Of a stretch of DNA of 33,538 nt, positions 10,739 through 14,360 are shown one piece after another. The translations under genes and the position numbers were made by a program. The DNA comes from Bacteroidota bacterium (GTDB lineage Bacteria; Bacteroidota; Ignavibacteria; Ignavibacteriales; SURF-24): assembly GCA_030706145.1 (NCBI GenBank), contig JAUZPB010000042.1:1-33538 (forward strand). Reading direction: 5' to 3'. The notes below the pieces were generated by a model that saw nothing but the letters and a program-made list of their open reading frames with translations, was not told the DNA's origin and ran no database searches. The first letter of the stretch is position 1; every line of letters begins with the position of its first letter.

Positions 10739-11218
10739 AACAACCTTTTTTTTTAATTTCCATTAATTGCAATACTAATGAAATATTTTATTGCACAAAT
10801 ATAAACAAATTACAATAAAACTATATAGTTATATTTATTGCATTTAGACTGGTTTTAGCCTTTTTCTATGTAAAATCAAACATTTAGTGTCCTTTACACA
10901 CCTTGCAGCGACTTTCCTTTAAGAAAAAACCTTGCCATACTATATATATGTTTTATGTGCCTAAATCCCGGGCAAAGCAAAATACACTATGATTAGTGTG
11001 CCAGAATTTATACATTTTTTTGAAAGACCAGTTTTTAAGCCTCTTTGTTCCCTGAGGTACACCCCCTTAAGAGGGGGATCAGATTTACCAGTGGGATTCT
11101 CGTGGAAACTATGTGATTTAAAGTACAGAGTTTTGTTATAAAATAAATATCAAAACTATAAGTGGTTAATGTATGTTTTACAATAAATAGAGAATTAATA
11201 AATCGAACGGAGCCGTGC
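10739..11218. other. 480-base spacer between divergent genes; GC-rich inverted repeat
   Basis: The spacer separates the minus-strand kinase-like gene from the plus-strand membrane cassette and must hold both promoters. A perfect inverted repeat, CCCCCT-TAAG-AGGGGG, lies at 11062-11077 in otherwise AT-rich DNA. A TATATTTG on the minus strand (10803-10796) resembles the Bacteroidota -7 element, about 57 bases before the kinase-like start, but I see no matching -33 element. The frame open on the minus strand across 11035-11283 gives no protein-like sequence. Nothing else was recognised. Confidence 0.5.
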
Positions 11219-12223
11219 ATGAGAAACATGAATGAGACTGATAGGCAGATTATGGCTGAAGTTGGGGCTAGTAATGGATTCAATTATATCTTTAAATCTA
11301 ATGGGCTTGAGAAAGAAATAGACAGTTTCAAGGAAGCAAAATTAAAAAATTTGAGCTTCAAAATTGTCTCTAAGCATATTATTATCTCACTTGTAGCACT
11401 ATTCTTTACATTCTTTCTTGATATAGCGCATGTTCCTATACTTGGAAATATTTCTATGAATATTGCCAAAGGATTATTCTCAAATTGGAATCCTGCCAAC
11501 CAGAGTTTTGAATCCATCAGTTTCTGGTGGATGCCGGTCATTGTTTATTTTATTTTTATCTTGTTCGCATATAAAGCATATGTCGAACTAAGAAGCGAGG
11601 TAAAACAATCTACTTCGTCAGATATTATTGATAGAATAATTGGTGCATCTATAAGCGTTATTGACGGTATTGCTACGGCTTTACCTTTAATTGGTGCAGC
11701 TATACTCCTGATAAGCATAAAACTTGGACCTGAAGTTTTCCTTGGCCTTTCCGTTCCTTTTGAAATAAAGGCCCTTACAGTACTTGCAATAGGAAAACTC
11801 TTTGAACCTGTTTTAGATGAGCTTAGCGTTGAATTTCAACACATCATTAATAAAGCTAATGAGCTGAAAACAAGATACTATGCACAAACGCAGATTGAAC
11901 ATTTTCAAAAAGTAATTGAACAGCTGGAATCTTCAAGCCGGCTAAATGCTGCTGTTGCCGTTTCAGAGTATATGTCCTTAGATGACCTGAGGCAATATGA
12001 AGAAGTACTAGTAAGGACTGTTGAGTTAAGCAGGCAGATCCAGCAGAATTTCGGCTCTACTTTCCAGGTGCTTGATAAGATAAATAGCCTTCAAGCCCTA
12101 AACAGTCAAAAGATCAATGAAATGAAAGTGCTGGCAGAATCAATTGCCAGTGCTTCAAATGCCCTCAAAGATGAAAAGACTCTACAGGCTTTGCGCAGTC
12201 TTGAATCGATTGTAAAAAAGTAA
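11219..12223 (+). CDS. Polytopic inner-membrane protein with C-terminal coiled coil, possibly MotA/TolQ/ExbB-like
   Basis: I do not recognise this protein with confidence. It has about four membrane segments within its first 200 residues: around IIISLVALFFTFFLDIA, WWMPVIVYFIFILFAY, IATALPLIGAAILLISI and IKALTVLAIGKLFEPVL. A soluble helical tail of roughly 130 residues with coiled-coil character follows. The last two segments (ATALPLIGAAILL, then a GLS...EIKALTVLAIGKL stretch) loosely recall TM2-TM3 of proton-channel subunits TolQ/ExbB/MotA, which carry APLLGLLGTV and a later small-residue-rich segment. That likeness is by eye only. The ATG at 11219 is preferred over that at 11162 because CGGAG sits at 11208-11212; the protein is then 334 residues. 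It is first in a three-gene cassette, 13 bases before the next gene. Confidence 0.75.
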   Translation: MRNMNETDRQIMAEVGASNGFNYIFKSNGLEKEIDSFKEAKLKNLSFKIVSKHIIISLVALFFTFFLDIAHVPILGNISMNIAKGLFSNWNPANQSFESISFWWMPVIVYFIFILFAYKAYVELRSEVKQSTSSDIIDRIIGASISVIDGIATALPLIGAAILLISIKLGPEVFLGLSVPFEIKALTVLAIGKLFEPVLDELSVEFQHIINKANELKTRYYAQTQIEHFQKVIEQLESSSRLNAAVAVSEYMSLDDLRQYEEVLVRTVELSRQIQQNFGSTFQVLDKINSLQALNSQKINEMKVLAESIASASNALKDEKTLQALRSLESIVKK

Positions 12224-12236
12224 GAGGGCAATAAAC

Positions 12237-13205
12237 ATGATAAAGAAAAACAGAGACAGTAAATTTGTTATATACCAGGTTCTCTACATTTTCGTTATTA
12301 CTGTTCTGGCTATTAAAGGAGCTAATCTGGACCTGGGAGAAGTAGTATCTAAAGATAAGGCCCTGAAGGTTAGCGTGCGCGATTCTCTTATGGCTGTAAT
12401 TGATTCGCTAAATGCACTTGGCCTGAAGTTTGACCTTAAAGTCCAGCAGGATTATTCTGCAGAAAATGCGGAACTTAAAAAGAAAGTTATGACACTTAGT
12501 AAAAGTGTTACAATGCTTTCCGAAAAAGCCTCAAAATCGCAAGAGACCTTGCAGGCTAACATAGCGCAAAAACCTGAAACAAAGGCCACTATAAAGGATG
12601 ATAGTCCTATGCAATCTCCTCTGGCCGAGTCACAGAGTTTTATTCAGAATACATGGAACATTGCAAAAAATAAGGGAAACCTTCCAGCTCAGATACTTGA
12701 TCCTGCCAGCAGAAATCTAATTGCTAATGTTGGCCCGGGGGAGGAGAAAAAATTCGACCTTTCAAATCAGAAGGAAGTTATTATCAGATTCGGAAGCAGA
12801 GAACAGAAGATACCTGTCATGCCTAAAAGACCTCCGGAGATAAAAATTGAAGCTGTAAGTTCCAAGATGAATGGTTCGGAAATTTATGTGCAGGACTTAC
12901 AAAAGACTACTGTTTATAAAGTGACTATAGTGGACGTTAGACCTGACCAGCTGCAGATAACTTACAGTGGTCCGGTAAGTGTCTCTGGCCCTGTAAAGGA
13001 TAGTAAAGGAAATCTGGTCTATAACGTAAGCCTGAAGATTGCATCAAATGAGCAACGGTTCGATGAATGGATCGATAGAACTAAACCTCTTAAAGATGGC
13101 GAGGGAAGATATAAGGTGAACTTCTTCTTTTTAGCATCTGATAAAGTAACTAAGGAAAAAGTGCAGGTCGGTGATTCGTTCTTCTTTACAAGTTTCTCGA
13201 GATAA
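12237..13205 (+). CDS. Single-span membrane-anchored periplasmic protein, possibly GldM-like
   Basis: This 322-residue protein has a short basic N-terminus, one membrane span (about residues 10-30, YQVLYIFVITVLAIKGANLD) and a long exported part. The span and its sequel recall the GldM/PorM N-terminus, which carries YLV...ALLALNVSKE, and also the topology of TolR/ExbD/MotB. Residues 70-115 look like a coiled coil. The last 120 residues (from IKIEAVSSKMNGSEI) seem to be beta-rich, Ig-like repeats. It is shorter than GldM, which is near 515 residues, and lacks clear family hallmarks, so the comparison is tentative. AGAGGG precedes the ATG. The next gene starts 3 bases after its stop, so the two are probably made together. 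Confidence 0.75.
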   Translation: MIKKNRDSKFVIYQVLYIFVITVLAIKGANLDLGEVVSKDKALKVSVRDSLMAVIDSLNALGLKFDLKVQQDYSAENAELKKKVMTLSKSVTMLSEKASKSQETLQANIAQKPETKATIKDDSPMQSPLAESQSFIQNTWNIAKNKGNLPAQILDPASRNLIANVGPGEEKKFDLSNQKEVIIRFGSREQKIPVMPKRPPEIKIEAVSSKMNGSEIYVQDLQKTTVYKVTIVDVRPDQLQITYSGPVSVSGPVKDSKGNLVYNVSLKIASNEQRFDEWIDRTKPLKDGEGRYKVNFFFLASDKVTKEKVQVGDSFFFTSFSR

Positions 13206-13208
13206 AGG

Positions 13209-14360
13209 ATGCTTATAGTAAAATCTTTCTATAAATTCGCTCTGTTCTTTACCTTTGTACTTTTTTTGGCTGCTCCTTGTGCATCTTTTGCACAGGATAA
13301 AGATGAAGAGCCCATTACCTATTTTCAGATGGAACCTCTGAATGATAGTCTTTTTGTCAAAATTCAGGAGGAGGTCTTTATTGATCCTCCTGATCCCAAG
13401 GCAGAAATTATTGTTGACCTAAGGGATCCAAATAACCAGACTGTTACGATAAAAGGGAATTTGTATCCTTTCCTTTCTTTCACGCCTGAAACAAGAGCCC
13501 TTATTACAACCTATCCTTTTAAGATAAATTTAATCGATGACATTAATCTTACAAGTGTCTTTACAAAAGTAATAAGCTCAATAAAACTGAAAAAGATTAT
13601 TGAACCTCCAAGAAGACAGCAGATAAGTTCAAACCTTTATTACATAAATCCTTACCTGCAAATTTTTGGCGGAGAAAGATTTGGCTTTCCGATCAAGCAG
13701 GATGTGGGTTTTTCTATTGGACTTGGTACCCCGTATTCCGGAGTTTTGGAAACGGGCTTTGTTGAGGCTAATTTTCATATCCTTGGCTTCAGACTTGGAG
13801 GCTTCGGAAATGTGAGTGCTTTTACCGAGATAAAGCAAACCAATAATCACAATAACCTTTATCTTGGCGCAGGTTATGAGCTGGGTTATGTAATTCCACT
13901 AGGCAATTTTTTTGAAATTAGTTACCTAAGTTCACTTAAGGACCCTTCTCCTGCACAGATGACAGCTATTGAATCGGCTCAAAATGGAGATTATAAACCA
14001 ATGATAATTAAAGGGAATTATCTTAACTGGGAGTTCCGGTTTCCTTTTAGAACCATGGGATCAACAAGATCAAAATTGTATCTTGCACGCTATTTGGATG
14101 AAACTCACATTGGTTTTAGTGGAAGGGAGCTTACAATAGCAGGCAGTACTTTTGATTTTCGATTTGATGCTCTTACTTCAAGTCCCGATAGAAACCCTCA
14201 GTACATTTTTGATATTCTTATACAGAAAATTGCCGATTCCTGGGCTTCAAGTGCCGTTTCACTAGGCCCATCGGTTATCTTAACAAAGATGGAAAATAGG
14301 AAATTTGGTGCAACTTCTTTTTTCTTTAATTTAAGGCTGAAGCTAGGAACTTCATTATGA
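13209..14360 (+). CDS. Signal-peptide protein, probable outer-membrane beta barrel
   Basis: This 383-residue protein starts with a Sec signal peptide, cleaved after about residue 28 (ASFA before QDKDEE). The first 110 mature residues are soluble and Pro/Asp rich. From about residue 145 on there are alternating short strands with aromatic and Gly residues (YINPYLQIFGGERFG, DVGFSIGLGTP, LYLGAGYELGYVIPLG, ISYLSSL), ending in FFFNLRLKLGTSL, which together suggest a membrane barrel. I cannot name a family. It has no ribosome-binding site at proper distance and starts 3 bases after the upstream stop, so re-initiation is likely. With its two neighbours it forms an inner-membrane to outer-membrane set. 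A weak hairpin at 14399-14417 follows the gene. Confidence 0.75.
   Translation: MLIVKSFYKFALFFTFVLFLAAPCASFAQDKDEEPITYFQMEPLNDSLFVKIQEEVFIDPPDPKAEIIVDLRDPNNQTVTIKGNLYPFLSFTPETRALITTYPFKINLIDDINLTSVFTKVISSIKLKKIIEPPRRQQISSNLYYINPYLQIFGGERFGFPIKQDVGFSIGLGTPYSGVLETGFVEANFHILGFRLGGFGNVSAFTEIKQTNNHNNLYLGAGYELGYVIPLGNFFEISYLSSLKDPSPAQMTAIESAQNGDYKPMIIKGNYLNWEFRFPFRTMGSTRSKLYLARYLDETHIGFSGRELTIAGSTFDFRFDALTSSPDRNPQYIFDILIQKIADSWASSAVSLGPSVILTKMENRKFGATSFFFNLRLKLGTSL

Follow-up and report, generated by a model that had tools for sequence, protein, structure and literature searches.

Three Co-inherited Genes of Ignavibacteria Encode a Putative Trans-envelope Complex That May Work Like GldLM or TolQR

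Introduction

What do three adjacent genes build when their products appear to reach from the inner to the outer membrane and belong to no named protein family? The question is raised by a locus in the window analyzed here, a 33,538-nucleotide stretch of DNA from a bacterium of the Ignavibacteriales, in which a first-pass annotation made from sequence alone had suspected an unrecognized ion-driven or transport machine. The products of the three genes are referred to below as P1, P2, and P3. The most likely reading, although belief and doubt are about equally balanced in it, is that P1 forms a PMF-driven ring and P2 an axle, which together act on an outer-membrane partner, P3. Were this reading true, the cassette would join the very few ion-driven engines known to span the envelope, and its combination of an acid on the ring with a base on the axle would test what such motors need. 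Even without a motor, three co-inherited unnamed families would amount to a new envelope complex.

A Conserved Gene Unit

The three genes lie on the plus strand, with 13 bp between the P1 and P2 genes and 3 bp between the P2 and P3 genes; the called reading frames agree with the layout first described (Table 1). For the P1 gene, a GTG at 11162 is a possible start, and the ATG at 11219 is preceded by GGAG 6 nt upstream.

Table 1. Coordinates of the cassette genes and of the features discussed in the text
Feature	Positions	Strand	Basis
Ribosome-binding-site-like motif GGAG of the first gene (P1)	11209..11212	+	sequence
P1 gene, 334 aa; inner-membrane protein with four spans and a helical tail in the cytoplasm; candidate subunit of a ring/channel	11219..12223	+	
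P1 TM3-TM4 hairpin (residues 134-194), best-conserved part of P1	11618..11800	+	
P1 codons E182, I183, and K184; intramembrane acid and base (E182, K184) invariant in 77/77	11762..11770	+	
P2 gene, 322 aa; single span, with helices and two Ig-like domains in the periplasm; candidate axle/shaft	12237..13205	+	
P2 transmembrane helix (residues 10-28), best-conserved part of P2; invariant Y13, Q14, Y17, and K27 (K27 codon 12315-12317)	12264..12320	+	
P2 periplasmic beta region (residues 122-322), predicted as two tandem Ig/cadherin-like sandwiches	12600..13202	+	
P3 gene, 383 aa; has a signal peptide and a conserved domain at the N-terminus, with a probable outer-membrane beta-barrel	13209..14360	+	

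The three genes are a real unit, and their order goes beyond chance because it is the same in orthologous and in paralogous trios. The genome from which the window comes carries a second complete, diverged trio (contig C302), at 22-37% identity and in the same order. Homologues were collected at 80 named loci, on contigs of Ignavibacteria or Bacteroidota that all appear to be metagenome-derived. At 61 of these all three genes lie side by side in order, so that the survey of gene order proposed with the first-pass annotation found linkage rather than scatter; a further 9 carry P1 and P2, and 10 carry P1 alone. Sixteen of the 19 incomplete loci run into a contig end; the other three are two that have no linked P3 (L032 and L049) and one that is a truncated second P1 (L076). 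In the three genomes that have no linked P3 (G003, G048, and G004, the last from the same family as the window), P3 is found elsewhere in the genome in every case. Among the flanking genes looked at, no conserved partner besides P3 was seen, where GldL and GldM share an operon with gldK and gldN. Viral contigs gave no match.

Across 59 related Ignavibacteriales genomes, a set that includes the window's own, P1 occurs in 15 and P2 in the same 15, with one additional weak match at 4e-4. P3 is again found in these 15, together with a fragment of 119 aa with two stops in a genome that has neither P1 nor P2 (G044). The co-occurrence gives a Fisher P of ~2.5e-14, a nominal value that ignores shared ancestry. 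Within families, and even within a single genus, the distribution is patchy and so reflects several losses or gains of the cassette.

A Conserved Membrane Core

Hydropathy and an AlphaFold2 model (pLDDT 80) agree in giving P1 four hydrophobic spans followed by a long cytoplasmic helical tail, in line with the four inner-membrane spans and the cytoplasmic coiled coil first described. The model places helices at residues 47-66, 104-130, 134-169, and 171-194, and the tail at 196-333. Conservation along the protein is far from even, with means of 0.76 for TM3 and 0.85 for TM4, compared with 0.61 for TM1/TM2 and 0.47-0.49 for the tail. Nine residues are invariant in all 77 sequences (P156, L157, G159, A160, A161, P180, F181, E182, and K184), and E182 lies at the hydrophobic maximum of TM4.

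For P2, the predicted structure has one span at about residues 7-28, helices at 39-60 and 78-107, and then two beta domains. The single span and the beta-rich region noted at first are thus present, but the long periplasmic coiled coil is replaced by two shorter helices, predicted with low to middling confidence. The span has a mean conservation of 0.88 as against 0.40-0.69 elsewhere, and Y13, Q14, Y17, and K27 are identical in 100% of 64 sequences. No conserved aspartate or glutamate occurs in the P2 span in the same 64 sequences. The search for a conserved acid in the single span or in its partner accordingly ended with the partner, in TM4 of P1. The beta region matches Ig- or cadherin-like structures in Foldseek (1.5e-5), and its residues 197-320 align with a Z of 9.0 and 2.5 A over 91 residues.

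Membership in a known family was sought in several ways. None of the three proteins of the window has a match at the curated cut-off in Pfam or NCBIfam, nor any in PADLOC, and among 77 P1, 64 P2, and 59 P3 homologues no Pfam family was matched by more than one-sixth, even at E 1. These searches agree with the early remark that none of the proteins could be assigned to a named family. The PF01618 model finds nothing in the window's P1 at E up to 5 and is not among the 25 families most matched by the 77 homologues; true PF01618 genes are present elsewhere in the same genome. P2 has no ExbD or OmpA match in Pfam, and the models of the PADLOC phage-defence library, ZorA/ZorB included, match nothing in the trio. 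One match of P2, to the NCBIfam LegC2/C7 model (2e-5, 24 bits against a cut-off of 350), covers the helical stretch only and was taken as coiled-coil noise. A sequence search of solved structures with profiles of the three proteins likewise returned coiled-coil noise or nothing.

Structural comparison of P1 ranks motor proteins first at a level below significance. When the entire PDB is searched with Foldseek, 36 of the first 50 matches are TolQ, ExbB, PomA, or ZorA chains, many copies of few proteins; probabilities reach 0.98, the best E is 0.026, and none reaches 0.001. With VIA-align, the motor matches have Z scores of 8.0-8.8 (ZorA 8.8, at 3.1 A over 126 residues; TolQ 8.5; ExbB 8.4), which tie with bundles from RND transporters, and a designed channel scores higher (11.1). 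The modeled membrane core of P1 fits a MotA/TolQ-like core, a match that is compatible but unproven. GldL is absent among the structural matches listed for P1, as is GldM among those listed for P2, and neither absence is evidence against a relation.

Direct kinship of P1 or P2 to GldL, GldM, or ExbB-like proteins did not rise above reversed or background controls. In hhalign, P1 against GldL or ExbB and P2 against GldM score no better than reversed alignments, and a PSSM test shows no consistent excess for GldL, GldM, or ExbB over a background of 390 N-terminal anchors and 105 membrane proteins. When short regions are aligned by profile, TM3 of P1 does fall on TM1 of GldL, and the spans of P2 and GldM fall on each other, both in the expected register. 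The "GldM-like anchor" once proposed for P2 takes one register with several GldM sequences but is not significant. Because the profile alignment and PSSM tests failed, membership in GldLM or in the MotA/TolQ/ExbB class is not claimed, and the suggestion of remote membership is not supported.

A Motor or a Scaffold

What speaks for a motor is that conservation peaks in the membrane core, in TM3-TM4 of P1 and the span of P2, together with invariant intramembrane charges. Under the motor reading, several copies of P1 would assemble into an inner-membrane ring with TM3-TM4 as its inner wall, and the span of P2 would sit in this ring, while the helices and Ig-like domains of P2 would bridge the periplasm as a shaft. 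As E182 took up and released protons, set against K184 of P1 and K27 of P2, it would move P2 relative to the ring, and P2 would pass the force to P3, which would in turn act on a surface or export process. We infer the ring stoichiometry, the ion flow, and that P2 touches P3, and likewise what the machine does at the outer membrane, where it possibly acts on surface polysaccharide, judging from the location of duplicated P3 genes. Against a motor stand the weak best Foldseek match, the ties of VIA-align with unrelated bundles, and the failure of sequence comparison to connect the cassette with any motor family, as well as the missing acid in the P2 span.

The same conserved charges could also form a salt bridge that serves assembly without ion flow. 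This is the basis of the main rival, a static trans-envelope scaffold in which P1 and P2, joined by intramembrane salt bridges, tether or position P3. Such a scaffold is unlikely on balance. In its favor, an intramembrane E/K pair and a lysine suit assembly as well as they suit energy conversion, neither co-inheritance nor an Ig-like shaft requires energy coupling, and no match to any motor is significant. What weighs against it is the near-invariant two-helix hairpin of 45 residues and the fact that the membrane parts are far better conserved than the soluble ones, which would seem to exceed what a tether usually needs.

The Outer-membrane Partner

P3 begins with a hydrophobic signal peptide that has no lipobox cysteine, as seen from hydropathy, and its beta-amphipathic stretches extend to the last residues of the C-terminus. 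From its sequence, the C-terminal part of P3 is likely an outer-membrane beta-barrel; of the signal-peptide barrel first described, the signal peptide and the amphipathic stretches are observed, whereas the barrel is a likely deduction from them. Its proposed role as a dedicated outer-membrane partner of P1-P2 gains from co-occurrence but not from structural support.

In some genomes P3 is duplicated. All six extra copies found in family f3 are located within or next to exopolysaccharide clusters, which contain genes for Wzc/Wzz, an SLBB export protein, the Wzx flippase, the Wzy polymerase, or UDP-sugar dehydrogenase or sugar-nucleotide enzymes. These copies form one lineage apart from the cassette copies (tree support 62/88; 97/98 for the f3 cassette copies). 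They hint at one use of the cassette at surface polysaccharide. The link is only a lead, because another extra P3, from the family of the window itself, adjoins squalene/phytoene synthase genes.

The location of the extra copies also bears on a second rival, a complex for export or transport. Here P3 would be an outer-membrane channel, for polysaccharide or lipid for instance, and P1 and P2 would be inner-membrane and periplasmic adaptors energized elsewhere. The six f3 copies accord with such a complex, but the cassettes themselves stand outside such clusters, with no match to 12 exopolysaccharide query proteins at 94 loci at 1e-6. Further weakening this explanation, the single lineage of the extra copies may reflect one event and not a rule, and P1 matches no transporter family. 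An export complex of this kind is improbable. Some cassette loci, L023 among them, do carry other open reading frames that look by eye like glycosyltransferases or flippases.

Comparison with Known Envelope Motors

The preferred reading, a ring and axle acting on P3, implies that the cassette may work like GldLM or TolQR. As in GldL-GldM and PorL-PorM, an operon encodes a protein that crosses the membrane more than once and has a long cytoplasmic helical tail; the last span holds a glutamate that is strictly conserved (in P1, E182, in 77/77). In GldL, E49 is the essential ring acid, comparable to E182 of P1, and its protonation controls GldM (PMC8986121). The shaft offers a looser likeness, with one span followed by helical and then beta domains (two helices and two beta domains predicted in P2), the D2 and D3 domains of GldM being all-beta after a helical D1 (PMC5790014). 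By the same measure, the membrane parts of GldL-GldM are also their best-conserved parts, whereas ExbB-like proteins have a weaker pattern. There are also differences: P1 has four spans and GldL two, P2 has two beta domains where GldM has a five-helix D1 and three further domains, and the linked partner of the cassette, P3, looks like a barrel.

TolQR, ExbBD, and MotAB resemble the cassette in the four-span layout, with a conserved core at TM3-TM4 as in MotA. ExbB-like genes share with P1 a P-x-[hydrophobic]-G motif early in TM3, one that occurs also in TolQ and MotA. The ion channel of MotAB consists of TM3-TM4 and the span of the B subunit (PMC12505986). In contrast to the axles of ExbD, TolR, and MotB, P2 is without a conserved intramembrane acid and has the invariant lysine K27 instead, and its periplasmic part is predicted to be Ig-like, where those axles have an ExbD-like or OmpA-like domain. 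ZorA-ZorB of the Zorya defence system also has a ring protein with a long cytoplasmic tail; unlike it, the cassette has no PADLOC match, P2 is without a peptidoglycan-binding domain, and the partner is an envelope protein. Finally, the AglRQS motor of Myxococcus serves gliding via Glt and spore-coat glycan transport via Nfs (PMC3858216). Its pairing of one inner-membrane motor with alternative outer parts recalls one P1-P2 pair with several P3, as an analogy only.

The cassette is found in a group in which SprA occurs in every genome searched (59/59) and the known motor GldLM is not detected: neither GldL (TIGR03513) nor GldM (PF12081) has a match above cut-off in the 59 genomes, the window's own included. 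Across the phylum, the GldL model has matches in 23 of 99 genomes. The window's genome encodes at least 150 type IX secretion system (T9SS) sorting domains. A role for the cassette as the general T9SS motor was considered and rejected, as 44 of the 59 SprA-positive genomes are without it; present in only 15 of 59, it is therefore not a general replacement for GldLM. That it is a highly diverged GldLM is very improbable, since the ring-borne acid, the helical-then-beta shaft, and a host with SprA, many sorting domains, and no GldL or GldM above cut-off are outweighed by this narrow distribution, the four spans in place of two, and the profile tests.

A more specific form of the ring-and-axle reading can be put forward tentatively, as a possibility that is more doubtful than the reading itself: the cassette would represent a separate class of ion-driven motor whose ring bears the acid and whose axle bears a lysine. 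This class, seen to date in Ignavibacteria and their close relatives, would drive interchangeable P3 partners, and one P3 lineage would have been taken into service for exopolysaccharide export or for its arrangement at the surface.

Additional Observations on Individual Loci

Several loci show features of their own. Seven contigs of one Ignavibacteria clade (L077, L078, L079, L080, L083, L084, and L100) stop ~150 bases or less from the start of the P2 gene, a place where an intact relative (L082) showed no tandem repeat. In genome G010, the P2 gene has an in-frame TAA and a remnant reading frame of 231 aa (L020:7119-7814), which makes it a broken or misassembled copy. Some cassettes carry tandem P3 pairs (L036:10124-11299, L039:10081-11220, and L035:5907-6514). 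The unlinked P3 paralogues within or next to clusters for exopolysaccharide biosynthesis or export, which form one lineage, are those at L225, L226 (two copies), L227, L228, and L229. A gene for a UPF0164 (PorV-like) outer-membrane protein is found a few kb from several f3 cassettes (L022:2303-3340 and five other loci). Upstream of the diverged cassette of G046, on the same strand, lies a gene for a protein with VWA and OmpA domains (L031:7411-9507), a possible peptidoglycan-linked partner.
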